NCBI GenBank assembly: GCA_015057835.1
Contig: SVDL01000013.1
Span: 1-32,530 of the forward strand
Length of the DNA: 32,530 nucleotides
Origin: Lachnospiraceae bacterium
GTDB taxonomy: Bacteria > Bacillota > Clostridia > Lachnospirales > Lachnospiraceae
Reading direction: 5' to 3'
The notes below the pieces were generated by a model. It saw nothing but the letters and a program-made list of their open reading frames with translations. It was not told where the DNA came from and searched no databases. The translations under genes were made by a program, and so were the position numbers. Shown piece by piece: positions 12,407-32,453 of the stretch; position 1 is the first letter of the stretch, and the number at the start of each line of letters is the position of its first letter.

Positions 12407-12507
12407 ATTTTCTCCGAATTTATAAGCGCTTCTCCACCTATTAGTGAGCATTCCGGACTGTCATGTGCCTGCAGTCCGTTCTGAAGCCTCCGAGAATCTT
12501 TATCTTC

Positions 12508-13787: not shown

Positions 13788-13815
13788 CAATACGGCAGAA
13801 AACCGGAGGTAAATT

Positions 13816-15003: not shown

Positions 15004-15030
15004 GACGACAGTGCTGTGTCCTGCGGCATA

Positions 15031-15079
15031 TTCAGAAGGATCTGCTGTTCCGCTGTATTCTGCAGCAAGTCCTTCTGAA
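15031..15079 (+). other. Intercistronic stem-loop between the two MFS genes
   Basis: TTCAGAAGGA (15031-15040) pairs perfectly with TCCTTCTGAA (15070-15079), and TGCTG pairs with CAGCA inside. There is no T-run, so it is more likely an RNA stability or processing hairpin than a terminator. It could lower expression of the second transporter relative to the first. Confidence 0.5.
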
Positions 15080-15162
15080 GCATCATTACAGAAGCAACTA
15101 TTTATACAGATCGAATATTGAACATGCGTAAAGCTAACAGATCCGAAAGGAAGGCAAAAGAT

Positions 15163-16347
15163 ATGCGATCTAATACGTTTTTCAAAAAAGCGGCTCTTCT
15201 ATGCTGTGGATACGGATTGATGTCCGATGCCGTCATTGTCCCGCTGACGACTTCGATCCTAAAAGATTTTCCCGGCACAGGTGAGGTGCTTATCAATTTT
15301 ATTATCGGCGGCTCTTTTATTTTCAGTCTTATCTCTGCTTTAGTGACAGGCAGAGTGATTCATCGTTTCAACAAAAAAAATGTTTTATTGTTCGGAACGC
15401 TTGTCTATTCTATCGCCAGTTTCGCAAGTGCGTTTGCTCCAAACATCGCATTTCTCGCTGTCACAAGAGCCATTGACGGACTGACGGACGGCATGGTAGG
15501 AGTAGCTGTTGTGCTCGCCATCAGCGAACTGTTCGGGGATCCGCTGGAGCGCAACAGTATGTTAGGCCTGCACTGGACCGCAGTATCCGCCTACGGCGTT
15601 GCACTGTCGCTGCTCTCCGGCTTTCTGTGTGTTTACAGCTGGAGAGCCTCTTTGTTCAGCAATATCCTGTCCTTTATCACGCCTCTGTTGATCTGGATCT
15701 ATGTTCCATCAATGCCTCCCCGCGAAACAGCTGTCAGACCTGCAGCAGCAAACGGATCCCACGACAAAGCAAAGGAAAAACTGCCCTGGCTTTGGATCAG
15801 TTTTTCCCTTCTTGCGGCACTGGTGCTTAATTGTTTATCTAATGTCTTCTATTTTACAGCGGATTTCTATGTTGCAGAGAGAGCTCTTGGCAGCTCAGCG
15901 CTTACAGGAGCATTTACCGCGATGTCAACCGTCGGCGGTGCGGCGGGGTTGGTATTCGGCAGGCTGTACGGCAAATTAAAGAATGCATTCCCGGTAATGA
16001 TGTTTGCCGCCGCCGCTGCGGGAACTGCCTCGCTGGCATTTCCCATAGGAGCCCTCTGGATCTGCTTTTTCCATATCATCATCGGGGCGACTTACACGCT
16101 GGGGCTCTCGTACTATCAGGCCTCTGTTGTCGAACGCATCCACTCTGCAAAAAGCGGGCAGATACTGTCATTCTTCGATGTAACGAGCTATATCGGACTC
16201 TCCTCCTCTGCCTATGTTCCCATGGTGGTTGCACTGTTCACCGGCAGCGAAAGCTACGTCACCTGTTATATCCCGATCTCGATCGTTCTGCTGGTTTTTT
16301 CAGGAATCTATCTGCTGTTGCTGTTACATGCCCGGAAAAAAGACTGA
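15163..16347 (+). CDS. MFS transporter (second of two)
   Basis: The protein has 394 residues from the ATG at 15163, which follows AGGAAGG; the frame is open from TTG 15118, but the extra 15 residues are charged and unlikely. About twelve membrane helices are predicted. VTGRVIHRFNKKNVLLFGTL corresponds to the loop 2-3 signature region, and AVTRAIDGLTDGMVGVAVVL to helix 4. A basic central loop lies around residues 190-210. It is similar in size and layout to the preceding transporter, so the pair may handle related compounds or act as importer and exporter. It ends 50 bases from the convergent DUF1097 gene, with no clear terminator between. Confidence 0.83.
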   Translation: MRSNTFFKKAALLCCGYGLMSDAVIVPLTTSILKDFPGTGEVLINFIIGGSFIFSLISALVTGRVIHRFNKKNVLLFGTLVYSIASFASAFAPNIAFLAVTRAIDGLTDGMVGVAVVLAISELFGDPLERNSMLGLHWTAVSAYGVALSLLSGFLCVYSWRASLFSNILSFITPLLIWIYVPSMPPRETAVRPAAANGSHDKAKEKLPWLWISFSLLAALVLNCLSNVFYFTADFYVAERALGSSALTGAFTAMSTVGGAAGLVFGRLYGKLKNAFPVMMFAAAAAGTASLAFPIGALWICFFHIIIGATYTLGLSYYQASVVERIHSAKSGQILSFFDVTSYIGLSSSAYVPMVVALFTGSESYVTCYIPISIVLLVFSGIYLLLLLHARKKD

Positions 16348-16397: not shown

Positions 16398-16895
16398 TCA
16401 CATTTTTGACATCAGGAATTTCTGGAACCGGTCGACCCCGATTCCCACATAGAGGATGCCGGCAGCCATGGCGGCGCCGATCTGGAGAAAATACGAGCCG
16501 GAGGCGGACAGCGGAGCGGGACCCATAATGGTGAGACCGATCGCCCAGCCGCACAGCCAGGCGGGCGTATAGATGAAGCGGGGAGCCAGCGAGCCCAGCA
16601 GGACGGCCAGACCTCCCATGAAGAACAGGGTGAGGAACAGGGTCAGATCCGCCGGGAGAGGCAATGCCGCCATCACATGGACGGCGATCCACGCCCAGAC
16701 GTCTCCGAGCCAGAATCCGATCAGGATTTTCAACGCATCCTCCGTTTTATTGCCGTTCGCGGAGTACACCCCTGCGCATATAAGAGCGACCGCACCGGTG
16801 GTAACACCGATGTGGCCGCTGAGTACTGCCCAAAGCGGCGGAAGAAGCGCAATCGAAAACGCAAGCGTCCAGACTTCTTTTTTTCTGCTATTCAT
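16398..16895 (-). CDS. DUF1097-family membrane protein
   Basis: This 165-residue protein is almost entirely hydrophobic, with about five membrane helices. Motifs typical of DUF1097 are visible: a Gly-rich segment after the second helix (NGNKTEDALKILIGFWLGD) and a closing helix pair ending in VGIGVDRFQKFL. The family has no established function; members are often near transport or catabolic genes. AAAGGAG lies about 12 bases before the ATG. It has the direction of the large operon but is set apart by 304 bases of repeated, structured DNA, so it may be a separate transcript. Confidence 0.75.
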   Translation of the reverse strand: MNSRKKEVWTLAFSIALLPPLWAVLSGHIGVTTGAVALICAGVYSANGNKTEDALKILIGFWLGDVWAWIAVHVMAALPLPADLTLFLTLFFMGGLAVLLGSLAPRFIYTPAWLCGWAIGLTIMGPAPLSASGSYFLQIGAAMAAGILYVGIGVDRFQKFLMSKM

Positions 16896-16920
16896 AATCC
16901 CTGCATACTCCTTTCCACCA

Positions 16921-17175
16921 GCCGTTGCGGCTCGTATGAGACGCGTAAGGCTCCTGGTCGCAGTTAGTGCTTAGCTCGGTAGGCTGATCCCGCCTGCCGC
17001 GGCGGCCCTCTCCCCCGCACGGACGTTAAGGAGCGCCTTTAGGCACTGACGAGATCCAGTGCTTACGGAGACTTGGAGCCGTCGCGGCTCGCATGAGACG
17101 CGTAAGGCTCCTAGTCGCAGTTAGCACTTAGCTCGGCAGGCCGTTGCGACCGTCCGTGCGGGGGAGAGGGCCGCC
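16921..17175. repeat. Composite repeat: 64-bp direct repeats plus 25-bp perfect inverted repeat
   Basis: Copies of a 64-bp sequence lie at 16921-16984 and 17078-17141, differing at six positions; both contain GAGACGCGTAAGGCTCCT and CTTAGCTCGG. A perfect 25-bp inverted repeat (17001-17025 and 17151-17175, core GGCCCTCTCCCCCGCACGG) encloses the second copy. A third, partial piece (AGTGCTTACGGAG near 17058) is also present. The block fills almost all of 16896-17199 and has no coding frame that I believe. It may be an extragenic repeat element or a structured RNA. Confidence 0.75.
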
Positions 17176-17199
17176 ACGCCTGCGTATGCTTATTAACGA

Positions 17200-18663
17200 T
17201 TACTCCTCTTCCAGATCCTCGATATAGTCCGCCGCGCTCTCCGCCGCCATACGGCCGGAGTTTACAGCAAATCCCATCGTATTGCCCGGCAGCGTAAAGT
17301 TATAGCTGTCGCCATAAATAATATTCGCGTCGGAGCCCGCGCTGTAGAGGCCTTCGATCGGGTACTGGTCCTCATTCAGAACTTCACAGTACTTGTTGAT
17401 CCTTACGCCGCCGACCGTGCCGTACGCGCCGAGATAGAATTTACCGACAAGATATTTGCCCTTTCCGGTGATCGGATGCAGGAACTTCTGCGGTTTGTGG
17501 AACTTCGTGTCCACGCCCTTTTCGCACATTTCATTGTACTCATCGATCGTATCCTGAAGGACATCCGGATCGATGTCGAGTTTTTCCGCGAGTTCTTCGA
17601 CCGTTTCCGCCTCGAAATACCCCGGATAGCCCTGTTCGACCGCCTGTGCCGCCTGTCCGTCGAAGGCGAGGAAGGCGTCCGCCGGATGCACGATGTCCAT
17701 GATGTCCGGGCCGTTCTTCTTGTATTCGCGGAGAATGCCTTCATCCATGATGCAGTATGCGTAATGTCCGGGCTGCATGCCGATCGCGTTGCCGGCATAG
17801 GTCGTGTTGCCCATGTAGCCTTCGTTCATGAAGCGCTCGCCGAACTGGTTGATGAGCAGGTTCGGCTGACGGAGCACCGCGTCAAGCAGGAACCAGTTCA
17901 GGTTGTCCGGGATCTGGTAAATGACTTCGATGTTCGGATTGTATTTGACCGCGCCGACTTCCCACATCATACGGAGACCGTCGCCGGTAATGCCCGGGAT
18001 CATGAACGGGAAATAATCTTCCCCGAGGTTGAGCCCGAATTCCTCTTTGATCATATCTTTATTGTTGCCGAAACCGCCGGTGCAGACGATGACCGCTTTG
18101 CCGCGGACTTCGACGTCTTCTCCGTCCTTGTTGACCGCTTTCGCGCCGCAGACCTTGTCGTCTTCCACGATCAGGGAGACAACCGGCGTCTCAAGAAGGA
18201 TCTCGCAGCCGAGTTCTTTCGCGCGTTCGGTCATAATGCGGACCATCGCGCTCGCCGCTCTCGGTCCGATCACGCCGTTGTCCGGCTTGACGATGTGCCA
18301 GGTAGCGGCAGATTCCTTGAAATACCGGAACGCGCCGGCAAATTCGACGCCCATCTCCTGCAGCCATTCGATCGTATCCGCGGACTTCTCAAAATAAGTC
18401 TGTACCAGATTGCTGTCAACGCGGAAATGCGTGTAGGTCATATGCAGATCCAGTGCTTCCTCGACGCTGATGTCGTTGAACATATCCTTCTGGATCTTCG
18501 TGCCGATGCCCAAGGGTCCCATGCCCATGTTGGCCGCGCCGCCTGTCGCGCTTGATTTTTCAAGAATAATGCTCTTTAAGCCTCTTTCTCCTGCCGTGAT
18601 CGCCGCTGCAAGACCCGCCGGGCCGCCTGCTACGATGACAAGATCTGCTTCCATGGTTCTCAT
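17200..18663 (-). CDS. FAD-dependent reductase, fumarate reductase/flavoprotein family
   Basis: The protein has 487 residues, with AGGAGG eight bases before the ATG. The N-terminal dinucleotide-binding motif is VIVAGGPAGLAAAITAGERG, followed by ILEKSSATGGAANMG. VIVCTGGFGNN is the second FAD contact, and GTVGGVRINKYCEVL with GLYSAGSDAN and LPGNTMGFAVNSGRMAAE form the C-terminal FAD region. This is the FAD_binding_2 group containing soluble fumarate, urocanate and enoate-type reductases. There is no signal peptide or flavin-transfer domain, so it is cytoplasmic and likely reduces a double bond in the pathway intermediate. Electrons probably come from the two iron-sulfur proteins encoded just upstream. 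Substrate unknown. Confidence 0.88.
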   Translation of the reverse strand: MRTMEADLVIVAGGPAGLAAAITAGERGLKSIILEKSSATGGAANMGMGPLGIGTKIQKDMFNDISVEEALDLHMTYTHFRVDSNLVQTYFEKSADTIEWLQEMGVEFAGAFRYFKESAATWHIVKPDNGVIGPRAASAMVRIMTERAKELGCEILLETPVVSLIVEDDKVCGAKAVNKDGEDVEVRGKAVIVCTGGFGNNKDMIKEEFGLNLGEDYFPFMIPGITGDGLRMMWEVGAVKYNPNIEVIYQIPDNLNWFLLDAVLRQPNLLINQFGERFMNEGYMGNTTYAGNAIGMQPGHYAYCIMDEGILREYKKNGPDIMDIVHPADAFLAFDGQAAQAVEQGYPGYFEAETVEELAEKLDIDPDVLQDTIDEYNEMCEKGVDTKFHKPQKFLHPITGKGKYLVGKFYLGAYGTVGGVRINKYCEVLNEDQYPIEGLYSAGSDANIIYGDSYNFTLPGNTMGFAVNSGRMAAESAADYIEDLEEE

Positions 18664-18743
18664 AGGGTATTCCTCCTTTTTGCGTGAGCCTGCTCAGCAG
18701 GCTGTCTGTCTGTCATTCCTTCGCGCCTTTGCAGCGCGTTTTT

Positions 18744-20021
18744 TCACTTCTTCACCGGCTTTGCGAATGCGCGTTTTCTCTTGCCGCTCCGCTCCCGTTT
18801 TGCCGTCTCTTCCTGAGCGGCGGCGGCCTCTCCATCCGCACCGGCGGTGGCGGAAACCTCCGCGGACACCTTTTTAAGCCGCACCGGCGTTCCCGCGTTT
18901 CTCGGGACCTTTCCGGAAATGAACCTGACTGCGCCTTCCGGGCAGGCCTCCAGGCATTTGCCGCATCTTGTGCAGGAAAATGCGTCCACGACCGCCGTAT
19001 ATCCCGTCTTCCGCTCGATCGCTCCTGCCGGGCAGACCGTCTCGCAGGCGCCGGAACCGGCGCATTTCGCCGGGTCAATATAATAGTTGAGATACGCTTT
19101 GCACACACCGGCCGGGCATTCCTTACGCCGGATATGCGCAGTCACCTCGTCTCCGAACTTCTCCAGAAGAGAGAGCACCGGCATCGGCGCGTCCTCTCCA
19201 AGCGTGCAGTGATAAGAAACTCTCATCGCGGACGCGATCTCACTCATAAGATCCGTTTCAGAACCCTTCGCAATAGCGTCCTGAATCTGTCCGATCCGTC
19301 CGGAGAGCTGCACGAGTCCTTCCCGGCAGAACGTGCATCTGCCGCAGCTCTTCCCCCGGAGAATAAGCAGTTCTTTCGCCGCCCGGTCCACCATGCAGTC
19401 CGTATTTTTCAGGATCCGGAGCACGCCGGAGCGTCCCGGGAGGTCTTTCGCCTGCATTTTCAGGATCTCTTCCACCGTGAAGAAGGTGTGATCCGTCAGC
19501 ACCGCTTTCGGGGATCCCGCTTCCCACAGTCCGCTGTCTCTCAGAATGCTGTCCACAGATTCTTCCGGATCCGCTTCCATAAGTGCCCCGTCTTCCACCG
19601 CAAGCACTACCCCCGGCGTCTCTCCCGCAAGGAGTTCCGCCGCCCGGTAGAGTTCATCCGCCGGCACATGAAGGTCTTCCCGGTGATCCGTGCGGAGCAC
19701 CATTTCCCCGGTCTCCACTGCAAGAGGAAGACCGGCTTTCTCCGCCGCTTCCAGAAGAGCTTCTTTTCCGTTTTCTTCTCTCAGAATAATCAGCGCTCCC
19801 TCCGCACCGGTATGCAGCACAAACGCTTTCAGCGCTGCGGTCATCCCTTCCGGATCGAGGAAAAACAGCTGTTCTTTGCGGTATTCCGTGTCGCTGTTGG
19901 CGACGGCGCCGACGATCCTGCCGGCCACCGGTTCCATGGTTCCGAGGCAGCCCCGGAGCTTCTCTGTGTCAAAAACAGATTTCTGCTCCGTAAGCCCGTT
20001 ATGCCGCTTTATGGATTTCAT
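18744..20021 (-). CDS. NuoF-like iron-sulfur protein lacking the NADH/FMN site, with C-terminal ferredoxin domain
   Basis: In this 425-residue protein, SCGRCTFCREG (Cys 226, 229, 232) and YHCTLGEDAP (Cys 272) are the N3-type 4Fe-4S site of NuoF/HydB proteins. The N-terminal 200 residues keep only a weak SLBB-like part and lack the Gly-rich NADH/FMN loop. The C-terminal ferredoxin has an intact site at Cys 350, 353, 356 and 360. In its first site (KCAGSGACETVCP, about 320-330) the second Cys is Ser 323, so a 3Fe-4S or altered cluster is possible. The tail is Ala/Lys-rich. It overlaps the upstream fusion gene by 4 bases (ATGA), so the two are surely partners. It should relay electrons rather than bind NADH. 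Confidence 0.82.
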   Translation of the reverse strand: MKSIKRHNGLTEQKSVFDTEKLRGCLGTMEPVAGRIVGAVANSDTEYRKEQLFFLDPEGMTAALKAFVLHTGAEGALIILREENGKEALLEAAEKAGLPLAVETGEMVLRTDHREDLHVPADELYRAAELLAGETPGVVLAVEDGALMEADPEESVDSILRDSGLWEAGSPKAVLTDHTFFTVEEILKMQAKDLPGRSGVLRILKNTDCMVDRAAKELLILRGKSCGRCTFCREGLVQLSGRIGQIQDAIAKGSETDLMSEIASAMRVSYHCTLGEDAPMPVLSLLEKFGDEVTAHIRRKECPAGVCKAYLNYYIDPAKCAGSGACETVCPAGAIERKTGYTAVVDAFSCTRCGKCLEACPEGAVRFISGKVPRNAGTPVRLKKVSAEVSATAGADGEAAAAQEETAKRERSGKRKRAFAKPVKK

Positions 20022-22135
20022 AACGCCGCCTCCTTTCCGCTGCTGTCATAATCGCTCCACAGATGCGGTCCGCTGATCGTGAAGCGCAGGTCGCACTGGA
20101 GGCACCGCTCCGCCTCGCCGCAGTGATCCGCGTCGCAGATTCCTCCGCTCACCTGCCGGAAATCCTGCTTTCTCTCTTCGGCAGCAAGGAACTGCTCCTG
20201 TTTTCTCTTCAGATACCCGAATCCTTCGATCTTCCCGATCGCAGGATCCGTCTCTTCCATCGGAAGCAGGGTCTCGGAAATGTCTCCGTCCCCGCCGAGG
20301 TACCTGTCGATCGCCGAAGCCGCTTCCCGTCCGGATGCAACGGCCTGAATAACGGTTTTTGTCCCGTAAACCGCGTCGCCGCAGGCAAATATGCCCTCCG
20401 TCGAAGTCTCAAGTGTCCCGTTCTTTACGGCGATACTGTTCGCCCTGCCGCGCTCAATGCCGCATTCCGGCAGCGCCGTTCTCTGACCCACGGCGAAAAT
20501 GACAGTGTCCGCAGGGATCTCATATTCCGAATTTTCCACTTTTGTGATCACCGCTCTGCGGTTCTCATCAAAATAAAACTCCTTTACGACGCTCAGCGCG
20601 ACGCCCGTGACCCTTTCCTCTCCGGTAATTTTCTCAAAAGTCCTGCCCGGCTGTACATCCACGCCTTCTTCTTTCGCCTGTTCGATCTCCTCGTCATCCG
20701 CGAGCATCATTTCCCGCTTCTCGAGGCATGCCAGCGCGACCGATTCCGCGCCGAGGCGGACTGCCGTTCTCGCGCAGTCAAACGCGACGTTGCCGCCGCC
20801 GAGGACGACCACATGTTTCCCCATGCCGGTCTCTTCGCCCCGGGACGCCTTTTCAAGAAAATCCGAGTTGAGAAGCACGCCGGGAAGCTCATTCCCCGGC
20901 ATCGGAAGCCGGACGCCCTGTGTGGTGCCTACCGCGATGAGTACGGCATCATATTCGCCGAGAAGAGATGCCGGATCGTCTATTTTCGCGCCTGTTTTTA
21001 CATTTACGCCGGCAAGGGCAAGATATCCCGCTTCTTTCTGCACGACGTCTCTCGGAAGCCGGTAAGACGGAATGCCGAACTGCATCTGCCCGCCCAGGGC
21101 TTCCCGTGCCTCGAAAATCGTCACCGAGTGTCCCTGTTTTGCGAGATAATACGCCGCGCTCATGCCCGCCGGGCCGCCTCCGATGACCGCTGCCTTTTTC
21201 CCTGTGGGCGGCAGCTGCTTCGAAGCGCTGATCCAGAGAGAATTGTCCGTATGCTCCGCCGCGTAGCGCTTCAGATTCCGGATGGAGACCGGCTCGTTCA
21301 CGACGCCTCTCCGGCAGTCCGCTTCACAGACATGCGTGCAGACCCGTCCGAGACATTCCGGGAACGGGAGCTTTTCGTGGATGACAGCGGTCGCTTCCGC
21401 GTATTTTCCCTGTCTGACCAGTCTCAGATACCGCGGTACGTCGGTATGGACCGGGCAGGCCGCCCTGCACGGGATCAGTGTATCCTTCTTTTCGACCGGA
21501 GTGTAATTCAGATAGTCGCGGATCGTTCCGGTCGGACAGACCTCCGCGCACGCGCCGCAGAACCGGCAGTCCGCGTCCGCAAGAAGCCGGTCATGCAGTG
21601 TTCCGACATAAGTTTCCAGTTCTTTTTTGTTGTACTGCAGTACGCCGACTTTACGAAGGTCCCCGCACGCGCGGACACACCGCCCGCACAGCACGCAGCG
21701 GTTCATGTCATGAATGAGGAGCGGATTTCTCTCCTCGGACGGGAATCCCTTCACTCTCGTCATCATCCGGGTCGCCGAAACGCCCATATACTGGATCAGC
21801 GTCTGCAGCTCGCATCTGCCGTATTTGGGGCAGGTCGAGCAGTCCTCGGGGTGCGCAGAAAGCAGCAGTTCCATCGCGAGTTTTCTTAAATGCTGGATTT
21901 CCGGGGTATCCGTGATCACGGACAGCCCTTCCTCCGCTTTCAGCTCGCAGGAAGGCGTCACGCCCTCCTGTCCCTCAACCGCCACAATGCACAGCCTGCA
22001 TGACCCCAGTTCCGGCAGATCCTTATGGTGGCACAGGTGCGGGATATAGATCCCGTTCTCCAGTGCCGCCGTAAGGACGCTTGTTCCCTTTTCCGTCCGG
22101 ATCTCCTTTCCGTCGATCCTGATCGTCACAGCCAT
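20018..22135 (-). CDS. NuoG-type iron-sulfur / GltD-type NAD(P)H oxidoreductase fusion
   Basis: This 705-residue protein has domains in order: plant-type 2Fe-2S (Cys 35, 46, 49, 63); NuoG His-Cys 4Fe-4S (His 95, Cys 99, 102, 108); two 4Fe-4S sites (Cys 147-157 and 190-200); a GltD-like linker with Cys 223, 227, 266, 270 and 274; the FAD motif VIGGGPAGMSAAYYLAKQG (about 318-336); and the NAD(P) motif VVVLGGGNVAFDCARTA. A final FAD segment contains GIFACGDAVYG. The layout resembles the large subunits of NADPH-linked iron-sulfur enzymes such as NfnB and HydA-less hydrogenase or formate dehydrogenase modules. It likely moves electrons between NAD(P)H and ferredoxin-type clusters. It is coupled to the NuoF-like gene by ATGA overlap. 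Confidence 0.87.
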   Translation of the reverse strand: MAVTIRIDGKEIRTEKGTSVLTAALENGIYIPHLCHHKDLPELGSCRLCIVAVEGQEGVTPSCELKAEEGLSVITDTPEIQHLRKLAMELLLSAHPEDCSTCPKYGRCELQTLIQYMGVSATRMMTRVKGFPSEERNPLLIHDMNRCVLCGRCVRACGDLRKVGVLQYNKKELETYVGTLHDRLLADADCRFCGACAEVCPTGTIRDYLNYTPVEKKDTLIPCRAACPVHTDVPRYLRLVRQGKYAEATAVIHEKLPFPECLGRVCTHVCEADCRRGVVNEPVSIRNLKRYAAEHTDNSLWISASKQLPPTGKKAAVIGGGPAGMSAAYYLAKQGHSVTIFEAREALGGQMQFGIPSYRLPRDVVQKEAGYLALAGVNVKTGAKIDDPASLLGEYDAVLIAVGTTQGVRLPMPGNELPGVLLNSDFLEKASRGEETGMGKHVVVLGGGNVAFDCARTAVRLGAESVALACLEKREMMLADDEEIEQAKEEGVDVQPGRTFEKITGEERVTGVALSVVKEFYFDENRRAVITKVENSEYEIPADTVIFAVGQRTALPECGIERGRANSIAVKNGTLETSTEGIFACGDAVYGTKTVIQAVASGREAASAIDRYLGGDGDISETLLPMEETDPAIGKIEGFGYLKRKQEQFLAAEERKQDFRQVSGGICDADHCGEAERCLQCDLRFTISGPHLWSDYDSSGKEAAL

Positions 22136-22197
22136 ACTGATTTCTCCTTCTGTAAGAGGCCCGCGAAGCAGGCCCCTGTCTTATTCGTCAAGAGCGG

Positions 22198-23298
22198 TTA
22201 AAATCCCTGAAAGACCGGTTTCCCGGTATAAATTTTCAGTTCCTCACTGCCCCGGAGCACGCGGAGCGCGCCGGCCGCCATTGCTTCCATCTCGAACTCT
22301 CCCGGATACGCGTAAACCGGCGCGATCCACTCTGTATTTTCCCGGATCTTATTCACAAGATCCTCACTGTGGACCATTCCGCCGCCCAGGAGAATTCCGT
22401 CCGCTTTTCCGCCCAGCGCCGCCGCCATGGCTCCGATCCCTTTCACGATCTGGTAGATCATCGCGTCCCACACAAGGGCCGCATAGCGGTCTCCTTCCGA
22501 AGCCCTTTTTGTGACTTCTTTCGCGTCCGAAATGCCGAGGTGCGAGACAAATCCGCCATTTCCGGTGCACAGCCGCCGCACCGTTTTCACATCGACCTGC
22601 TCCCGTTCCATGTAATCAAGAAGATCATAGACGGAAATGCCGCCGCAACGGGTCGGCGCCATCGGGCCTTCCCCGCCGACGATGTCGTATCCGTCGATCA
22701 TTCTGCCTTTCCTGTGGGCGCTGACCGATACGCCTCCGCCGATGTGGCAGACGACGTAGCTGCATTCCTCATACCGTTTTCCGAGCACCTTTTCGCTGTG
22801 CCGGATCGCGGTCTCTTTGAGGTTCAGCGCGTGCAGATGCACAGTCCTCGCCACGCCTTTAATGCCGGTCACACGCGCAAGATCCGTGAGTTCATCGGTA
22901 TCCGGCGGGTTGACGACCATCGCCCGTCCGCCGTATTCCGCGGCAAATGCTCTCGCAAGCTGCGGCCCCAGCGTAGCGGGGTGAATGACGCCGTTCGCGC
23001 AGGTCCTCGCGTGTTCCAGCACAAGATCCGTGATCTCGTACGTGCCGCCCTCTGTCGGCAGCAGGCCGCCGCCCCGTCCGACAAATACGTCCGTGCCCTC
23101 CAGCGTGAGCCCCTCCTCCGCAAGGATCGAGAGGATCATTTTCTTCCGGTAGGGCAGCTGCATCGGCATTTCCGGAAACTGTGCCAGTTCCGACGCGTCA
23201 TGAGCAACATTTTTGGAAAATACGCACTCATCGCCCTGAAACAGCGCTATTTTCGTCGATGTGGAACCCGGGTTGACGGCAAATATTTTTTCGTTCAT
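22198..23298 (-). CDS. buk: Butyrate kinase
   Basis: The 366-residue length and motifs are those of the butyrate kinase branch of the acetate kinase family (ASKHA fold). FAVNPGSTSTKIALF is the phosphate-1 loop, FVGRGGGLLPTEGGTYEI the substrate loop, VCHIGGGVSVSAHRKGRMID the phosphate-2 region, and ILLGGGMVHSEDLVNKI the adenosine site. It converts an acyl phosphate and ADP to a carboxylate and ATP. Its start overlaps the stop of the phosphate acyltransferase gene by 4 bases, the classic pairing for ATP formation. No butyryl-CoA-forming genes (thl, crt, bcd) are in the window, so the acid may be another branched or short acid. Confidence 0.92.
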   Translation of the reverse strand: MNEKIFAVNPGSTSTKIALFQGDECVFSKNVAHDASELAQFPEMPMQLPYRKKMILSILAEEGLTLEGTDVFVGRGGGLLPTEGGTYEITDLVLEHARTCANGVIHPATLGPQLARAFAAEYGGRAMVVNPPDTDELTDLARVTGIKGVARTVHLHALNLKETAIRHSEKVLGKRYEECSYVVCHIGGGVSVSAHRKGRMIDGYDIVGGEGPMAPTRCGGISVYDLLDYMEREQVDVKTVRRLCTGNGGFVSHLGISDAKEVTKRASEGDRYAALVWDAMIYQIVKGIGAMAAALGGKADGILLGGGMVHSEDLVNKIRENTEWIAPVYAYPGEFEMEAMAAGALRVLRGSEELKIYTGKPVFQGF

Positions 23299-24311
23299 GA
23301 TTGTTTTCCCTTCGCAAGACCGGCGGCGCGAACGGCGGAGATGATGATATTTCCCTTGATCTCCGAAACCGGTGCCCCGCGCGAGCAGTCACAGATCACG
23401 CCGTCAAATCCCTGCAGCATCGGCCCGTACGCGTCCGCGTGTCCGAACTGCTGGATGAGCTTCACGCCGACATTGCCGACGTTGAGATCCGGCCAGATGA
23501 CCACGTTCGCGCGCCCTGCGACCGCGCTTTCCCGTTTTACCTTCTTCGCGGCCACGGCGGGATTGACCGCCGCGTCAAACTGGAATTCTCCGTCTATAGC
23601 GAGATCCGGTCTCTCTTCCTTCGCAATCCGCACCGCGTCGACCACTTTGTCCACGAGTTCCCCCTGGCCGCTGCCGAGGGTCGAGTAGCTCACCATCGCG
23701 CACCGCGCATCCCATCCGAGCAGGGATTCCACTGTCTCGCAGGCCGAGATGGCGATATCCGCGAGCTGTCTCGCCGTCGGGTTGGTGCAGACCGCGCTGT
23801 CGCCGATCGCGAGCAGCCCGTCCTCGCCGCCCTCAAAGCCCGGAATGTCACAGATCCCGATACTGGAGACGGTGCTGATGCCGGGCATCAGGCCGATCAT
23901 CATCTGACCGGCTAAAAGCACATCCCCGGTCGTATTGTCAATGCCGGCAAAGGTCACGCCGACTTCGCCGGTCTTCTGCATTGCCATCGCGAAGTAGAGC
24001 GGATTTTCCATTCGTCTTGCGAGGGCTTTTTCTTTCAGTCTCGTATCCGGCAGCGCGACATAATTTGCGATGACGGCGTTTTTCCGCGCTTCGTCCTGCG
24101 TATCCGCATACGTGAAGACAGACGGGTCATACCCGCGCTCTCCCGCAAGCAGACGCAGTTCTTCTTCCGGCCCTACCAGCACCGGGATAATGTAGCCTTC
24201 TTTGCCGGTCTCATAGGCCGCCTGCATCATTTTTTCGTTCGATGCTTCCGGGAAAGCAACTTTTACAGGATTCTGCTTCGCCTTTTCATAGATCTTTTCC
24301 AGCATGCCCAT
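23295..24311 (-). CDS. Phosphate acyltransferase (Pta/Ptb family)
   Basis: This 338-residue protein has family-typical length and complete motifs: QMMIGLMPGISTVSSIGICD, MVSYSTLGSGQGELVDKVVD, AIDGEFQFDAAVNPAVAAKK and VVIWPDLNVGNVGVKLIQQF. It moves an acyl group from a thioester (CoA, or here possibly the carrier protein encoded next to it) to phosphate. GGAGG lies nine bases before the ATG. It begins 18 bases after the carrier protein gene and overlaps buk. The sequence is closer to acetyl-type Pta in the motif region, but pairing with buk suggests a longer acyl chain; I leave the substrate open. Confidence 0.88.
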   Translation of the reverse strand: MGMLEKIYEKAKQNPVKVAFPEASNEKMMQAAYETGKEGYIIPVLVGPEEELRLLAGERGYDPSVFTYADTQDEARKNAVIANYVALPDTRLKEKALARRMENPLYFAMAMQKTGEVGVTFAGIDNTTGDVLLAGQMMIGLMPGISTVSSIGICDIPGFEGGEDGLLAIGDSAVCTNPTARQLADIAISACETVESLLGWDARCAMVSYSTLGSGQGELVDKVVDAVRIAKEERPDLAIDGEFQFDAAVNPAVAAKKVKRESAVAGRANVVIWPDLNVGNVGVKLIQQFGHADAYGPMLQGFDGVICDCSRGAPVSEIKGNIIISAVRAAGLAKGKQS

Positions 24312-24329
24312 TTTCCGTGTCCTCCGCGA

Positions 24330-24569
24330 TCAGAGTTCCTCTTCCACAAGATCGACCAGATCTCCGACCGTCGTGCATCCCGCGGCATCCTGCAGCTGGA
24401 TGAACGCGTCGAGTTCATTCTCGATCTCGGCGACGAGCGCTACCATCTGGATCGACGCGCCCTGCAGATCTTCCTTAAAACTGGTGGCGGTGGAGAGCTC
24501 CGCGGCGTCTCTGTCATAGGAAATCGCTACCAGTTCCAGCACTTTCGCTTCGAGTTCTTTTCTGTCCAT
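24330..24569 (-). CDS. Acyl carrier protein with altered DSL motif
   Basis: This 79-residue, strongly acidic four-helix carrier protein is close to standard ACP length. The phosphopantetheine site, normally DSL, reads GASIQMVAL here: Ser 39 is kept, but the Asp before it is Ala and the next Leu is Ile. The downstream helix (VALVAEIENELDAF) and the closing TTVGDLVDLVEEEL match ACP helices II and IV. It lies between the DUF35/thiolase pair and the phosphate acyltransferase with gaps of 11 and 18 bases. No fatty acid synthesis genes are nearby, so it likely carries a pathway acyl group. Whether it is phosphopantetheinylated must be tested. Confidence 0.85.
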   Translation of the reverse strand: MDRKELEAKVLELVAISYDRDAAELSTATSFKEDLQGASIQMVALVAEIENELDAFIQLQDAAGCTTVGDLVDLVEEEL

Positions 24570-24580
24570 GTTTTTTCTCC

Positions 24581-24997
24581 TTATTCTTCGTCGAGGTCAA
24601 ATACAACTGTTTTGTAGCCGTCTCTCTGATAGATCGACGCGTGGCAGGGCGCCGGCAGCAGTCCTTTTTCAAGCATTTCCGCTCTCTTTTTCTTGTTGAT
24701 GCCGCGCACGACCGCGTTCAGTCTCGCACCTTCTTCGATCTCTACTTCGCCATACGCGTATTTTCCCAGCGCCTTATATTCCGGTTTTGAAGAGAGCGCC
24801 GCCGGCATGACAATGGAGTGAAGACGCGCTTTTCCGCTGATCTCGACCCATTCCATGTCCCAGCATCCGCATTTGTTGCAAGCGTAGACGGGCGGGAATT
24901 CCACGGCACCGCATTTCAGGCATTTCCGGCCGGTGATTTTCCCTTCTTCCAGATTCTCATAAAACGTCTGAACGACTTTTTCCAGTTTAATAGCCAT
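24581..24997 (-). CDS. DUF35 / OB-fold zinc-ribbon acyl-CoA-associated protein
   Basis: This 138-residue protein has an N-terminal zinc ribbon with Cys 26, 29, 40 and 43 (GRKCLKCG and ACNKCG), then an OB-fold with ISGKARLHSIVMP and YAYGEVEIEEGARLNAVV. DUF35 proteins form obligate complexes with thiolase-like enzymes, for example PhlB with PhlC, archaeal HMG-CoA synthase complexes and steroid side-chain aldolases Ltp2/ChsH2. Here it is 12 bases from the thiolase-like gene, the expected partner. It likely helps bind the CoA or carrier-protein acyl arm. No other fused domain is present. Confidence 0.9.
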   Translation of the reverse strand: MAIKLEKVVQTFYENLEEGKITGRKCLKCGAVEFPPVYACNKCGCWDMEWVEISGKARLHSIVMPAALSSKPEYKALGKYAYGEVEIEEGARLNAVVRGINKKKRAEMLEKGLLPAPCHASIYQRDGYKTVVFDLDEE

Positions 24998-25009
24998 CGC
25001 TTTCCCTCC

Positions 25010-26317
25010 TTATTCCGCCGTCCGGATAATGTAGGTGCAGATGTTCTGCGCTCCGCCGTAGCCGCGCAGCATCGCCGTCTTCGGAAGCCTCTTTACCTGG
25101 CCTTCACCGGCTTCGCCTCTCATCTGCCGCACCGCTTCGTAAAGGTCCGCGAGACCGGACGCCGCGTGGGCGTGGCCGAACGAAGTGCGTCCGCCGTTTG
25201 TGTTGATCGGTTTGTCGCCGTCGTAAGCCGTTCTGCCCTCGCAGATGTATTTCCATCCCTCTCCGTACGGGAGGTATCCGGCAATTTCCGCCGCGATGAG
25301 GTGAGAGGTAATGATAAAGTCATTGGCGTAGAAAATGTCGATTTCTTCCGGTTTTACTCCGGTCAGCTCGTAAACCTGGCGGATCGCCTCTTCGGTTGCC
25401 GTGACCTCAAAATGAGGAGTCGTCGCCTCGCAGGCCGCGCAGCCGATGCCGAGCACTTCGACCGCTTTGTGGGATTTGTTGCCCATAAATTTGTCCACGA
25501 GGTCCGTGGCGCAGATGATCGCGGCCGCCGCGCCGTCGCATTTGAGTTCCAGGCCGCCCGCGCGGAGGAAATCACCCATCTTCGGGTTGTATGGGGAGCG
25601 CATGTAGTCAATGACATTTTCAAAGCCTTTTTCCTTCGCGATGGATTCATAGGTCCGGCGCTCGATCGCAAGTTCATTGACGGACGCGTTCCGGCGGTTG
25701 TTGATGCACATCCAGTTGAGCGTGTCATCCATTTCCTGATCCGTGATGCCGCGGGTCCTCTTGTACCACTCGGCAGCGTCATCGTAGATCAGTTCCTGTC
25801 CTGCCATAAGGCTCCTCGTGTAGTTTCTGTCATAAAGCCATGCCGTCGTCTGGAGGAACTTTTCCATCGTCATTTTTTCGCGCTTGTAGGGATGGTTCGG
25901 GACCGCCAGGGAATCGCCGAACTCGACGCACCCGGTCAGGACGCAGTCATATTTGCCGGAAGCGACCGCATTGACGGCTTCTTCCACTGCGTAATAGCCT
26001 GTGCAGCAGGCCTCGGAATGATGGATCGAGGCTTTGCCCTTCATGCCGAACCAGTTCGCGATCTGGATATTCGGCGTGAGATAGTTGGAGCCGTTTAAGG
26101 GGCTCGCTTCGCCGTGGAAATAAAAATCGACATCTTTCGGGCTGACGCCGGCGTCTTCCATGGCCTTCAGCGCCGCGTAGCCGAACAGCTCGCCTTCCGT
26201 GAGGCCGTTCGTCTCTTCTTTGTCAACCGTATACATAAACGGGGTGCATCCGACGCCAATGATCGAAACACCTCGGCGGTACGGGTGCGGATGGGTCTGA
26301 TTCATGATCTCGGGCAT
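25010..26317 (-). CDS. SCP2/PhlC-type thiolase-fold acyltransferase or aldolase
   Basis: This 435-residue thiolase-fold protein has the nucleophile region IHHSEACCTGYYAVEEAV (Cys 104/105) and the His loop NTNGGRTSFGHAHAASGL. The second catalytic Cys of classical thiolases is missing: the C-terminus reads MLRGYGGAQNICTYII in place of CxGGGxG. This is the pattern of the SCP2/lipid-transfer group such as PhlC and Ltp2, which act with DUF35 partners as acyltransferases or retro-aldolases rather than as ordinary beta-ketothiolases. It lies 15 bases after the flavoprotein gene and before the DUF35 gene. I infer carbon-carbon cleavage or acyl transfer yielding the thioester used by the later genes. 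Confidence 0.88.
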   Translation of the reverse strand: MPEIMNQTHPHPYRRGVSIIGVGCTPFMYTVDKEETNGLTEGELFGYAALKAMEDAGVSPKDVDFYFHGEASPLNGSNYLTPNIQIANWFGMKGKASIHHSEACCTGYYAVEEAVNAVASGKYDCVLTGCVEFGDSLAVPNHPYKREKMTMEKFLQTTAWLYDRNYTRSLMAGQELIYDDAAEWYKRTRGITDQEMDDTLNWMCINNRRNASVNELAIERRTYESIAKEKGFENVIDYMRSPYNPKMGDFLRAGGLELKCDGAAAAIICATDLVDKFMGNKSHKAVEVLGIGCAACEATTPHFEVTATEEAIRQVYELTGVKPEEIDIFYANDFIITSHLIAAEIAGYLPYGEGWKYICEGRTAYDGDKPINTNGGRTSFGHAHAASGLADLYEAVRQMRGEAGEGQVKRLPKTAMLRGYGGAQNICTYIIRTAE

Positions 26318-26332
26318 AATCTTCTCCTTTGC

Positions 26333-27280
26333 TCAATCGATCCCTTTAAACTTCATGTTCAGGTACTTCTGTTTTCTCTCCGCGACCAGCTTCTGTTTCT
26401 CCGGATCCGCGAAGAACCCGCCCTGGGTCTCTCCGATCTCCTGCAGATGTTTTGCGCGTCCCTCTATGGTCGTGCGGTCCTTGAGAAGTCCGTTCGGGGC
26501 AATGACAAATTTCCATTTTCCGTCTTCCGTCGGCTCCAGCGTCCCGCCGGCGCCGCAGACCTGGCATTCCACCGGATAATACAGGCCGTCCCACTGCACT
26601 TCGCCGAGAACAAGGGCGTTGGAGTGGCAGTTCGGGCACCATCCCATGTCTTCCTCACCGAGCCACCCTCTCTCTTCCGGCGGCGTCTTGATCGCGGTCA
26701 TGATGTTTTCGCCCATTTTGTGCGCTCTCTTCATGAGATCCTCATTCAGCAGGCATTGCCCGTTGCCCGGTACGCGCTGCGCGAGGATCATGTCGACGAC
26801 CTTCATGTCCGTCGTGAACATGGTGGCCTGCAGGCCTTCCAGCGCCATGGACTGCCAGGATCTCGTCGATCCGCCGACAGAAATAAGGCCGGCGATGCGG
26901 TCCTTGTGCTCGATCGCGTGGATCGCCTCCAGGAACGCCGTCTCATAGGCAAGGCTTCTCTGCGCGAAAGAAAGATACGTCGCCGTCGGCATAAGGTCAT
27001 ACGTCGGGACGGAATAGATCACCGCGTCCTGCGCCAGCATGACGTCCATGATCTTCTTTTTGTCGTCTTTTTTATCGAGCACACAGCCCACGTTCTTTCC
27101 CTCCGACATGCCCTTTGTACATGCCGTGCAGCCTGTGCAGTCAATGATATGATAGTCGCGCAGATTGATCATCGTGATCTCCGCACCCTGGTCCGCGCAT
27201 GCCGAAAGCGCTTCTTTCAGCAGGAATTCCGCGTTGCTGTTCTTTCTTCCCGCTGTGATTCCCATTACTTTGTATGCCAT
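26333..27280 (-). CDS. Iron-sulfur flavoprotein with C-terminal zinc ribbon
   Basis: The protein has 315 residues from the ATG at 27280, which has AGGAGG six bases upstream; an apparent extension to 27370 runs through the terminator-like hairpin and is rejected. Residues 1-195 are an NADPH-dependent FMN reductase/flavodoxin fold starting KVMGITAGRKNSNAEF. The cluster motif CTGCTACTKGMSEGKNVGC (Cys 48, 51, 54, 66) is close to the compact site of archaeal Isf iron-sulfur flavoproteins. An added zinc ribbon follows at Cys 215/218 and 239/242 (WCPNCHS, ECQVCGAGG). The tail of about 60 residues is charged. It should carry one or two electrons between ferredoxin and a partner. The ribbon fusion is unusual in my experience and may dock a partner. 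Confidence 0.83.
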   Translation of the reverse strand: MAYKVMGITAGRKNSNAEFLLKEALSACADQGAEITMINLRDYHIIDCTGCTACTKGMSEGKNVGCVLDKKDDKKKIMDVMLAQDAVIYSVPTYDLMPTATYLSFAQRSLAYETAFLEAIHAIEHKDRIAGLISVGGSTRSWQSMALEGLQATMFTTDMKVVDMILAQRVPGNGQCLLNEDLMKRAHKMGENIMTAIKTPPEERGWLGEEDMGWCPNCHSNALVLGEVQWDGLYYPVECQVCGAGGTLEPTEDGKWKFVIAPNGLLKDRTTIEGRAKHLQEIGETQGGFFADPEKQKLVAERKQKYLNMKFKGID

Positions 27281-27323
27281 CTTTTCCTCCTGCCGTTTTT
27301 CTTTCCGGAAACGGCTGTTTTTT

Positions 27324-27361
27324 AAAAATGCGCCCGGAAGCTCCCACTGCATCCCGGACGC
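27324..27361 (-). terminator. Internal terminator or attenuator before the iron-sulfur flavoprotein
   Basis: On the minus strand GCGTCCGG (27354-27361) pairs with CCGGGCGC (27330-27337), with one G-U pair, followed by ATTTTT (27324-27329). It lies after the small protein stop and before the flavoprotein. A further GCCGTTT/AAACGGC hairpin follows near 27300-27318. This could cut transcript levels after the first two genes of the operon. Confidence 0.5.
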
Positions 27362-27377
27362 ACTGTACATCGGTTTC

Positions 27378-27674
27378 TTATGCTCTTACGCCGTCACACT
27401 CGAATTCGCCCATCGGGTTTACGGATTTGCCGACCAGGCGGTCGCCTTCCAGTTTGCCGGACAGATGATTCGTCATTTCGCCGACGGCTGTCTTGATCGT
27501 GATCTCATAATCGAACGCGCCATCCTTGAACGTGCCGTTTTCGATCTGCGCAACAGCGCCGTTGCCGGCATCTTCCACCGTACCGGTCAGGGTCTCGCCG
27601 TCGACCTTATAGTCGCACTTCGAAGCCATATCGCCCATAAATGTGTGTACCGTAAGAATCCATTTGCCTTCCAT
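27378..27674 (-). CDS. Small lipocalin-like beta-barrel protein, unknown function
   Basis: This 98-residue protein is built of short beta strands with repeated GxLxGT-type turns: DGETLTGTVEDAGNG, NGTFKDGAFDYEI, GKLEGDRLVGKSV and a closing MGEFECDGVRA. Similar small proteins with TPMG/PMG turns occur in Clostridia and Actinobacteria beside catabolic genes, and I recall no assigned function. There is no signal peptide, so it should be cytoplasmic. It starts 84 bases after the UroD-like gene and precedes the terminator-like hairpin. It may bind a small hydrophobic intermediate; this is only a fold-based guess. Confidence 0.75.
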   Translation of the reverse strand: MEGKWILTVHTFMGDMASKCDYKVDGETLTGTVEDAGNGAVAQIENGTFKDGAFDYEITIKTAVGEMTNHLSGKLEGDRLVGKSVNPMGEFECDGVRA

Positions 27675-27758
27675 TTCATACTCCTTTCCGAACGGTGATC
27701 CCGTTCCGCAAGTGTTTTTATACTTCGTTTATTTTTTCCGGTCCTTTCCGGATTGTGT

Positions 27759-28739
27759 TCATGCGAATTTGAGGTTCTTGTACTGTCCGTATTTCTTTCC
27801 TTCGTCGTCGATAATGCCGTCAACCTTCGGAACGATGGAGAACATGACCGCCGAGGATACCATGAGGCCGCCGCCTTTTCCGAGAGTATCTATGACTCTT
27901 CGGACATCCGCGCGGATATCTTCTTCCGTCGCGCCGGGCACATCCGTGACCTGGGGATCGACCGCTCCCGCGAAGATCAGCTTGTCGCCGTATTTTTCCT
28001 TCAGCATCTTGAGATCGTTGTTCGGCTGGACCGAGTGCCAGCTGTCAACGCCGATCTCCACAAGATCCCCCACGATCGGCGTGATGTAGCCGCAGCTGTG
28101 GTGCATGTATTTCATGCCGAGTTCGTGCGCGGCCGCCGCCAGTCTGCGCTCCGGCTCTTTGTAGAACTTTCTCCACATTTCCGGCGACATGAACAGCTGC
28201 TGCTGGTTGCCCCAGTCATCGTGCATCATGACAAAATCGACATCATAATATTTTTTAATGAAGGGGAACTGCTCCAGCCGGTAATCGACGTAGGCGTTGA
28301 CATATGCCTGATAGGCTTCCTCATCGTCAAACGGCGCCATCAGGGCGTTGACATGGCCCATGGTCGAGCAGATCCGCTCGAATGCTCCCATGTTGCCGAC
28401 GTAATATCCCTGCAGCTGATCCTTCTTGGCCCACATGGCTTTTGTTCTTGCCGCAGCGGCTTCCCAGTTCTTATCCTTGCAGCTCGGGAATTTAATGAAA
28501 TCCTCCCAGTCGCAGATATCCTCGAGCAGCGGCTGACCCGGCTTCACGTGGCTCATCAGCTCCGGGTGCGCCGGATCGACTTCCCATTCCAGGCCGAAAT
28601 CGTCCTTTCCGCTCATGAAGAGCGGCCTGTCGTTGATCTCCGGAGAAATGATCATCTGGGCTGCGGTATTGATCATCGGCACCCATTCCGGCTGTTCGTG
28701 ATTCCAGCACAACTCCATATTTTCGCGTTCTGTAAGCAT
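27759..28739 (-). CDS. UroD-superfamily methyltransferase-like protein (second copy)
   Basis: The protein has 326 residues from the ATG at 28739, which has AAGGAG six bases upstream; a start at 28772 would add 11 unlikely residues. It has the UroD/MtaA barrel: FVMMHDDWGNQQQLFMSP parallels the acidic loop of the first copy, and KYMHHSCGYITPIVGDLVEI carries the HxC zinc motif of methylcobamide methyltransferases. GAVDPQVTDVPG follows as in the family. It is not HemE: the N-terminal RQAGR-type signature is absent. It is the first gene of the large operon, divergent from the second PucR gene, exactly as the first UroD copy is arranged. The reaction is unknown, and no corrinoid protein gene is in the window. 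Confidence 0.83.
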   Translation of the reverse strand: MLTERENMELCWNHEQPEWVPMINTAAQMIISPEINDRPLFMSGKDDFGLEWEVDPAHPELMSHVKPGQPLLEDICDWEDFIKFPSCKDKNWEAAAARTKAMWAKKDQLQGYYVGNMGAFERICSTMGHVNALMAPFDDEEAYQAYVNAYVDYRLEQFPFIKKYYDVDFVMMHDDWGNQQQLFMSPEMWRKFYKEPERRLAAAAHELGMKYMHHSCGYITPIVGDLVEIGVDSWHSVQPNNDLKMLKEKYGDKLIFAGAVDPQVTDVPGATEEDIRADVRRVIDTLGKGGGLMVSSAVMFSIVPKVDGIIDDEGKKYGQYKNLKFA

Positions 28740-28824
28740 GTTTACTCCTTTTTTCCTGCTCCCGCAGGACACCTGTTGCTTATGATCTCAATGAAAGCAG
28801 TTCGTTCTGCGATTTTCTGTTTTT

Positions 28825-32075: not shown

Positions 32076-32453
32076 CTCTTTTACTATTACTTTGCCCTGT
32101 GCTGACTCTTTGGGGCCGGTCGGGGCATGTCTTATCTTGTTTTTTCTCTTTTACCATGCCCCGCGCTGACTCTTCGGGGCAGGACGGGGCATGTCTTATC
32201 TTAATTCTTCTTGTTTGCCATGCCTCTCACCGGCTTTTTGAAGCTGGATGAGGCATGTCTAATCTTGTTTTTTCTCTTTTGCCATGCCTCTCTCTGACTC
32301 TTTGGCACCGGATGAGGCATGTCAATTCTTGTTTTTTCTCTTTTACCATGCCTTTCACCGTCATTTTGGGTCAGAGCCAGGCATGTCAAATCTTGCTTTT
32401 TCTCTTTTAACATGCCTCTCACCGACTTTTTGGGTCAGAGCCAAGCATGTCAA
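32076..32453 (+). repeat. Right 64-bp tandem repeat array (six copies)
   Basis: GGCATGT (AGCATGT in the last copy) recurs at 32124, 32188, 32252, 32316, 32380 and 32444, again exactly 64 bases apart. The conserved part reads GGCATGTC, then a CTTG and TTTTTTCTCTTTTA stretch, then CCATGCC; the variable part keeps GACTCTTTGG-like sequence. Arms pair with compensating changes: CATGCCCCG/CGGGGCATG (32155-32163/32185-32193), CATGCCTC/GAGGCATG (32219-32226/32250-32257 and 32283-32290/32314-32321), CATGCCT/AGGCATG (32347-32353/32379-32385). The array begins right after the M20 stop and ends at the inverted repeat. Confidence 0.85.

Follow-up and report, generated by a model that had tools for sequence, protein, structure and literature searches.

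A conserved thiolase–DUF35–ACP–Pta–Buk operon of Lachnospiraceae with a probable role in reductive, ATP-yielding polyphenol breakdown

What is degraded or made by an operon in which a DUF35-partnered thiolase, an acyl carrier protein (ACP), a phosphotransacetylase-like acyltransferase (Pta), and a butyrate-kinase-family kinase (Buk) are joined to a series of redox genes? Such an operon lies on contig SVDL01000013.1 of a Lachnospiraceae bacterium, and the window analyzed here is this entire contig (G000:C55, 32530 bases), from an assembly (genome G000) that is 91% complete. The operon probably represents a conserved rumen and gut gene set which reduces flavonoid-like plant compounds and then cleaves them, with the bond energy kept as ATP. 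The question is approached through the genes themselves, their conservation, linkage, fusions, and co-occurrence, and a local exchange with phloretin hydrolase (PHY) genes, all of which are directly established.

The genes follow one another on the minus strand (16398–28772) in the order UroD-like, 98-aa protein, FLR-like, thiolase, DUF35, ACP, Pta, Buk, NuoG/GltD, NuoF-like, FAD reductase, and DUF1097. The gaps between them range from −4 to ~100 nt, with the exception of 304 nt ahead of DUF1097, and a clear Shine-Dalgarno sequence is found upstream of most of the genes. An earlier interpretation made from the letters alone (the sequence-only reading) had proposed a catabolic operon with small gaps or overlaps, in which cleavage to an acyl thioester is followed by an acyl phosphate and then ATP, with redox genes attached. 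All of the genes it named are present with the domains it assigned, the tight spacing is borne out, and a conserved module of catabolic appearance that fits this logic was found. It had also described the modules as not usually found together; in these bacteria they are often together.

The thiolase–DUF35–ACP–Pta–Buk core

The five core genes are a conserved unit in its own right. In the window they are, all on the minus strand, the thiolase (25010–26317; Pfam Thiolase_C_1, 3.4e-30), a putative C-C cleaving enzyme or acyl transferase; its partner DUF35 (24581–24997; Pfam zf-ChsH2, 8.1e-7), composed of a zinc ribbon and an OB fold; the small carrier protein ACP (24330–24569; Pfam PP-binding, 3.2e-6); Pta (23295–24311; Pfam PTA_PTB, 5.8e-82); and Buk (22198–23298), which scores 361 bits against NCBIfam TIGR02707 with a cut-off of 289. 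Related loci were found by the thiolase alone, and the best 80 of 257 confirmed candidates are the named thiolase loci below; those with the closest thiolases are from rumen and gut Lachnospiraceae and other Clostridia. The genes of these relatives were called as longest open reading frames (ORFs), by which starts are approximate and small genes can escape, and some neighbor functions were assigned by eye. With loci at contig ends taken into the counts, ACP is found in 72 of the 80 loci, DUF35 in 69 (six more have it as a thiolase fusion), Buk in 65, and Pta in 64. Since the loci were collected through the thiolase, this recurrence indicates that the grouping is more than chance. In seven close relatives, L022–L028, with thiolases 72–87% identical, the thiolase, DUF35, and Pta are together, with ACP among the called genes of six loci and Buk among those of four, and the flanks vary between loci and often carry what appear by eye to be house-keeping genes.

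The residues expected to be functional are fully conserved. Cys104, His68, Asn332, and His382 of the thiolase are invariant (87/87), as are the zinc residues Cys26, Cys29, Cys40, and Cys43 of DUF35 (75/75) and the attachment residue Ser39 of ACP (78/78). The active-site residues of PhlC are His56, Tyr124, His144, and Tyr298; we take His68 to be the equivalent of His56, which is only a guess. Up to 20 of the 80 loci have phosphopantetheinyl transferase (PPTase) genes within the stretches fetched around them (11 and 9 by two reference proteins), three of them confirmed with Pfam, and these genes and the invariant Ser39 indicate that ACP is probably charged with phosphopantetheine. The thiolase is fused with DUF35 in L079, L071, L072, L073, L077, and L090, where a long thiolase frame is found and no separate DUF35. 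The fusion is directly visible in the alignment of L023, which contains the same gene as L079.

Pta is closer to phosphotransacetylase (263 bits) than to phosphotransbutyrylase (56 bits). The catalytic pair Ser309/Arg310 is present in all 71 core Ptas, Arg133 of the second CoA site is lost in all 71, and Arg87 is present in seven of them. Arg133 is retained in two other Ptas of G000 and is lost in the remaining Ptas compared, some of which come from loci without ACP. The loss of Arg133 might be a sign of adaptation to ACP. It is a hint only, because the second CoA site is reported to tune Km and not catalysis (PMC6461089; papers are cited here and below for the excerpts available), and because Ptas from loci without ACP have lost it too.

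Standard butyrate formation was considered as the function of Pta and Buk and was ruled out, because its partner genes are missing and other pta-ackA and pta-buk pairs are present elsewhere in G000. The window has no beta-oxidation-type genes, as the sequence-only reading had pointed out.

Paralogous thiolase/DUF35 loci with Pta or Buk in various mixes were also recognized by eye (L035, L036, L038, and L030). Their partners include UroD-like proteins, ApsA-like FAD proteins, a small ferredoxin, acyl-ACP-thioesterase-like proteins, and a TRAP transporter, and L035 additionally carries a PHY-family gene. These loci are probably related pathways for other substrates.

Redox genes linked to the core

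The redox genes (FLR-like, FAD reductase, and NuoG/GltD) belong with the thiolase core. The sequence-only reading had named a gene order unique to this contig as the result that would speak against it; instead, the thiolase is linked to all three redox genes in 17 of the 80 loci, including 14 of the 37 that are well flanked (8 kb or more on each side), and the gene order takes five different forms. The FLR-like gene was counted at ≥45% in the 80 loci, and a more distant FLR relative is found in 22 loci. The run FLR-FAD-NuoG/GltD-NuoF-thiolase-DUF35-ACP-Pta-Buk-DUF1097 is observed in strains KH1P17 (L117) and MA2020 (L120). Eubacterium plexicaudatum ASF492 (L115) has a run of the same type as L117, but its NuoG/GltD and Buk frames look broken. 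Co-occurrence was further analyzed in 299 same-family genomes, which span 298 genera and are treated as independent in the tests. NuoG/GltD (E 1e-150) is present in 8/8 thiolase-core genomes versus 24/299 overall (expected 0.64, p 5e-10), and the FLR-like gene (E 1e-60) in 6/8 versus 14/299 (expected 0.37, p 8e-8).

The FLR-like FMN ene-reductase (26333–27280, minus strand) had been described as an iron-sulfur flavoprotein. The gene is there, and its identity is refined to a homolog of the gut flavone reductase FLR, whose structure is PDB 7d38 (E 1.5e-27, 33.3% identity over 279 aligned residues; the code was traced to PMC7862272). Its longest ORF extends to 27370, and the ATG at 27280 was picked by the Shine-Dalgarno sequence and homology. 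The equivalents of FLR His271 and Ile275 are conserved in 22/22 FLR-like proteins. According to the excerpt of PMC7862272, all 11 FLR homologs picked for testing were active, and FLR cannot accept electrons from NAD(P)H, with its electron chain given as unknown.

A candidate for this chain is encoded downstream of Buk. The NuoG/GltD fusion (20018–22135, minus strand) contains 2Fe-2S, 4Fe-4S, and FAD/NAD(P)H domains and is a candidate for the electron input. The NuoF-like relay proposed in the sequence-only reading (18744–20021, minus strand) was confirmed as an Fe-S protein, with the match limited to the C-terminal Fe-S part of NuoF (Pfam NADH_4Fe-4S, 2.2e-18) and 4Fe-4S (Fer4) motifs, and it has no NADH/FMN domain. 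The relay, which is without an NAD(P)H domain, and NuoG/GltD, which has one, constitute a candidate electron chain for the FLR-like enzyme. The FAD reductase (17200–18663, minus strand) was likewise correctly named; it is of the fumarate/urocanate/vinylphenol reductase kind, below the cut-off of NCBIfam VprA (313 of 600 bits), and its structural relatives in PDB are flavocytochrome c and urocanate reductase. It lies near NuoG/GltD in 21 of the 25 NuoG/GltD loci found in the 299 genomes. The NuoF-like gene is separate in 19 of these 25 loci and makes up the front of a fusion with the FAD reductase in L129, L132, L168, and L169. Four further fusions in the named thiolase loci L051, L061, L077, and L090 bring the different ones to eight. 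These natural one-frame fusions suggest that the NuoF-like protein passes electrons directly to the FAD reductase.

Exchange with phloretin hydrolase and the proposed pathway

In the published gut route, as excerpted, FLR reduces a flavone, Fcr, or CHI with a reductase, opens the ring to a dihydrochalcone (PMC8398226), and PHY hydrolyzes the acyl-phloroglucinol bond (PMC8398226, PMC10470551). The neighbors of the 25 NuoG/GltD loci, labeled by hand from maps of stretches up to ~20 kb, include an FLR-family, PHY, or phloroglucinol-pathway gene in the same stretch at 14 loci. In L129 (G126) and L132 (G265), the FAD reductase, NuoG/GltD, DUF1097, and PHY (a DAPG-hydrolase-family gene) are in one operon. 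These two operons are without the thiolase, DUF35, ACP, Pta, and Buk, and PHY occupies the position of the five core genes of the window. Their FAD reductases (82% and 78%) and NuoG/GltD proteins (71% and 68%) are the closest to those of the window among the 25 loci. The best solved relatives of the G265 PHY gene are the phloretin hydrolases 5xe5 and 5xey (E 4e-30), followed by PhlG (1e-21). A run in L167 (G230:C30) consists of FLR-like, FAD, NuoG/GltD, NuoF, two genes judged by eye as transporter-like, and PHY. In total, PHY is found within ~5 kb of three of the 25 loci versus 0.18 expected (p ~8e-4). The membrane protein DUF1097 (16398–16895, minus strand; Pfam 8.9e-23), often at one end of the block, is present in 29 of the 80 thiolase loci as well as in both PHY operons.

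A complete four-gene phloroglucinol cluster (SDR, cyclase, 3-hydroxyacyl-CoA-dehydrogenase-like, and BKACE) is located beside NuoG/GltD in L122 (G050) and L123 (G292); the four phloroglucinol genes are known as PGR, DPGC, TfD, and TAL (PMC10470551, excerpt). The substrate, which the sequence-only reading had left blank, is no longer wholly so, since the neighbors suggest polyphenols that contain a ring of the phloroglucinol type.

The phloroglucinol pathway and the core tend to be found in the same few genomes as PHY, the redox pair, and the FLR-like gene. The PHY family (PF18089) was found in 21 of the 299 genomes. The PHY cut of E 1e-15 was chosen after the list was seen, and counts at the Pfam cut-off are given alongside; between the two cuts, only G154 changes among the genomes with DPGC (one match, E 4.5e-7, 29.8 bits). 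DPGC (E 1e-60) is present in 14/299 genomes, of which 12 have NuoG/GltD (p 3e-13), 10 the FLR-like gene (p 7e-13), 11 PHY at the Pfam cut-off (p 7e-13), and five the thiolase core (p 5e-6). BKACE has a match in 45 of the 299 genomes. All 10 genomes with both DPGC and the FLR-like gene carry PHY or the core, with PHY in nine at the Pfam cut-off and in eight at E 1e-15. G292 (99% complete) has DPGC, the FLR-like gene, and the core with no PHY match and is the one clean case of the core without PHY; G154 (87% complete) is a second core case with a single weak PHY-family match. The DPGC search, together with the fusions of the NuoF-like protein and the FAD reductase, strengthens the pathway context. 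Single genomes can contain many phloretin-hydrolase-family matches, seven in G230 and five in G219, some of them fragmentary, which suggests substrate diversification.

Several neighbors would also agree with a module acting on the ring side, by thiolytic opening of a reduced ring (a cyclic 1,3-dione) or of a beta-keto acid downstream of phloroglucinol or resorcinol: L122 and L123 have phloroglucinol genes close to the redox genes, L176 has a DPGC-like gene, and L067 has TAL-like and TfD-like genes near the thiolase. The redox genes of L125, L138, and L171, where a thiolase was not found, are also accompanied by Pta and Buk. However, phloroglucinol clusters already have DPGC and TAL, with a classical thiolase and a CoA transferase in addition in L122, no DPGC match was found in the core genomes G000, G036, and G075, and the local exchange is with PHY. 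We consider this ring-side function unlikely. Still less likely is that the substrate is another reducible plant or host ketone or enone and that FLR, PHY, and phloroglucinol genes merely mark polyphenol specialists. The differing pocket residues described below, the presence of PHY and the core together in several genomes, and the paralogous thiolase/DUF35 loci with other partners (UroD-like, ApsA-like FAD proteins, and a TRAP transporter, by eye) are in line with such a substrate. The links are local too, in same-strand runs in L129, L132, L167, L122, L123, and L119, and go beyond the genome-wide association.

Several observations weigh against an operon for flavonoid-type compounds in which the core stands in for PHY. 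Across genomes, PHY and the core show a positive association instead of exclusion, with a PHY-family match at the Pfam cut-off in 4/8 core genomes versus 0.51 expected, which weakens complementarity at the genome level; the substitution is argued from the local operons and not from the genome-level pattern. One or more of FLR-like, FAD reductase, and NuoG/GltD are linked in just 19 of the 37 well-flanked loci, and none of them in the other 18. The core genomes G036 and G075 have no FLR-like match at 1e-60, only relatives of ~28–30%, and they share the lack of a DPGC match with G000. In G000 itself (91% complete), no BKACE, DPGC, or PHY match was found in the 299-genome searches, so the window organism may release the ring instead of consuming it. 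The thiolase, for which the sequence-only reading had proposed the PhlC type, stands as a DUF35-partnered thiolase, and by sequence and fold archaeal, SCP2, and benzoylsuccinyl-CoA thiolases are at least as near to it as PhlC. In its structure model, the surroundings of the active site are predicted with low confidence (mean pLDDT 64.8), and Foldseek confirms the thiolase fold only. Trp149, Lys282, and the FMN-phosphate contacts of FLR differ in the pairwise alignment with the FLR-like protein, and one Flavonifractor plautii FLR homolog was inactive on apigenin (PMC8398226, excerpt). Because of the last two points, "flavonoid" is a class guess; other polyphenols yielding acyl-phloroglucinols or acyl-resorcinols are equally possible.

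With these points weighed, we favor, with modest confidence, an operon for reductive degradation of flavonoid-type polyphenols in which the phloretin hydrolase step is replaced by a thiol-trapping, ATP-yielding step. From the sequences we infer its reactions, substrate, direction, and acyl route as follows. Electrons from NAD(P)H would enter via NuoG/GltD and travel through the NuoF-like relay to power two reductases, the FAD reductase and the FLR-like ene-reductase. Reduction of C=C bonds in the polyphenol by these two enzymes would leave an aryl ketone of the dihydrochalcone (acyl-phloroglucinol) type. This ketone would be attacked by Cys104 of the DUF35-held thiolase, with release of the phenol ring in a reverse Friedel-Crafts acylation, and the acyl group would move to the carrier protein or to CoA. 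Pta would then convert the thioester to an acyl phosphate, from which Buk would produce ATP and an aryl-alkanoic acid. A more specific version is free of CoA: the thiolase and DUF35 would cleave the aryl-ketone C-C bond onto the phosphopantetheine of ACP, the Pta without Arg133 would phosphorolyze the acyl-ACP, and the butyrate kinase relative would yield ATP from an aryl-alkanoyl phosphate. This CoA-free fermentation is put forward only tentatively.

The cleavage step of the proposed pathway is derived from PhlC, which is DUF35-partnered and forms the same type of bond by Friedel-Crafts acylation via an acyl-cysteine (PMC6392133, excerpt); if this chemistry is reversed with a thiol acceptor, a thioester is obtained, from which Pta and Buk would give ATP. 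The Pseudomonas acylase PhlACB (PpATase) likewise has a thiolase with catalytic Cys and His and a DUF35 partner. The operon differs from it in having ACP, Pta, and Buk and a thiolase sequence not specially close to PhlC, and no separate KAS III-like protein (PhlA) was found among the window proteins scanned. The excerpt of PMC6392133 describes PhlACB as acting in the making direction, and an ACP with a conserved Ser39 and PPTase genes near the core are typical of biosynthesis; Buk and Pta could then run in reverse to load an acid onto ACP, and the thiolase and DUF35 could acylate or condense a phenol into a small secreted product. The linked reductases, the PHY exchange, and the co-occurrence with ring degradation fit breakdown better, and a biosynthetic module appears improbable.

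Three other known systems are comparable to the proposed degradation operon. Benzoylsuccinyl-CoA thiolase BbsAB is a thiolase with DUF35 which yields an acyl thioester from an aryl ketone, whereas the window proteins fall far short of the two NCBIfam cut-offs, with 91 of 750 bits and 26 of 250 bits. With the gut flavonoid pathway FLR–Fcr/CHI–Phy of F. plautii and Eubacterium ramulus, the operon shares the FLR-family ene-reductase, and some relatives carry PHY at the position of the core; the window, in contrast, is without PHY and has the five core genes and an FAD reductase which would be fed by NuoG/GltD and NuoF. In L119, an OYE/FAD protein comes after the FLR-like gene, and from its size and kind we presume it to be the equivalent of Fcr. 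A search of G000 with this protein, itself only Fcr-like, gave just distant OYE/FAD relatives (31–34% identity). The anaerobic phloroglucinol cluster of Clostridium scatologenes, which relatives carry next to the redox genes or elsewhere in the same genome, likewise ends in acyl phosphate and kinase steps in the excerpt of PMC10470551, whereas PGR, DPGC, TfD, and TAL are all absent from the window.

Accessory genes, the rest of the window, and the meaning for polyphenol breakdown

Two accessory genes begin the operon. The UroD-like protein (27759–28772, minus strand; Pfam URO-D, 1.2e-12) resembles MtaA/CmuA methyltransferases and scores 40 of 235 bits against NCBIfam mtaA_cmuA; the 98-aa protein (27378–27674, minus strand) has no family match above its cut-off. 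The two genes are also paired in G291:C42 (L152). The sequence-only reading had suggested that co-occurrence of the core with the UroD-like gene and the FAD reductase be looked for. The FAD reductase does co-occur, and the UroD-like gene does not, as its homolog (UroD1) was found in just 1 of the 80 thiolase loci within the fetched flanks. The UroD-like protein was thus ruled out as the first enzyme of the pathway, and the module shows no conserved link to this gene of the type expected for a UroD/MtaA methyltransfer system. A PucR-type regulator (28946–30406, plus strand; Pfam HTH_30, 6.6e-17) is divergent from the operon, and PucR-like genes adjoin the block in several relatives such as L115, L117, and L120.

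On the other side of the operon, a second UroD-like gene (371 aa) and two MFS transporters (12672–16347, plus strand) are accompanied by a divergent PucR regulator (10835–12451, minus strand) and may constitute a sister catabolic locus. A DHDPS-family gene adjoining an enolase-superfamily (MR_MLE) gene (7842–10205, minus strand) resembles sugar-acid catabolism. The 1181-aa protein at 1470–5015 (plus strand), with an N-terminal TIR domain and beta-propeller repeats, is possibly a defense or signaling protein. Both contig ends carry tandem arrays of similar units repeated every 64 bases (75–327 and 32104–32438), and one type of repeat seems to mark the break of the contig at either end. Rfam and tRNA scans of the window gave no matches, the promoter and terminator scan predicted no higher number than in shuffles, and tblastn against 467 plasmid records gave no match at 60% identity or more.

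In the open-access literature searched, which did not include preprints, no link between cleavage of phloretin or flavonoids and a thiolase of this type or a butyrate kinase was found in the excerpts available; downstream of phloroglucinol, both a butyrate kinase and a thiolase of the classical type are mentioned (PMC10470551). The energy-conserving cleavage step proposed here was not found in print in that literature. The operon is real and conserved, and the process of which it is a variant is probably anaerobic polyphenol breakdown. If the proposal is correct, the bond whose energy is wasted by phloretin hydrolase would yield ATP to gut and rumen bacteria, and it would be easier to understand how the breakdown of polyphenols can pay. 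A cleavage enzyme would also be on offer for flavonoid degraders seemingly without Phy, such as the C. picagaria metagenome-assembled genomes with FLR, Fcr, and CHI but no Phy in the excerpt of the Catenibacillus paper (PMC11170127). Likewise, FLR-like enzymes would gain a candidate electron chain, and catabolism a possible acyl-ACP step.

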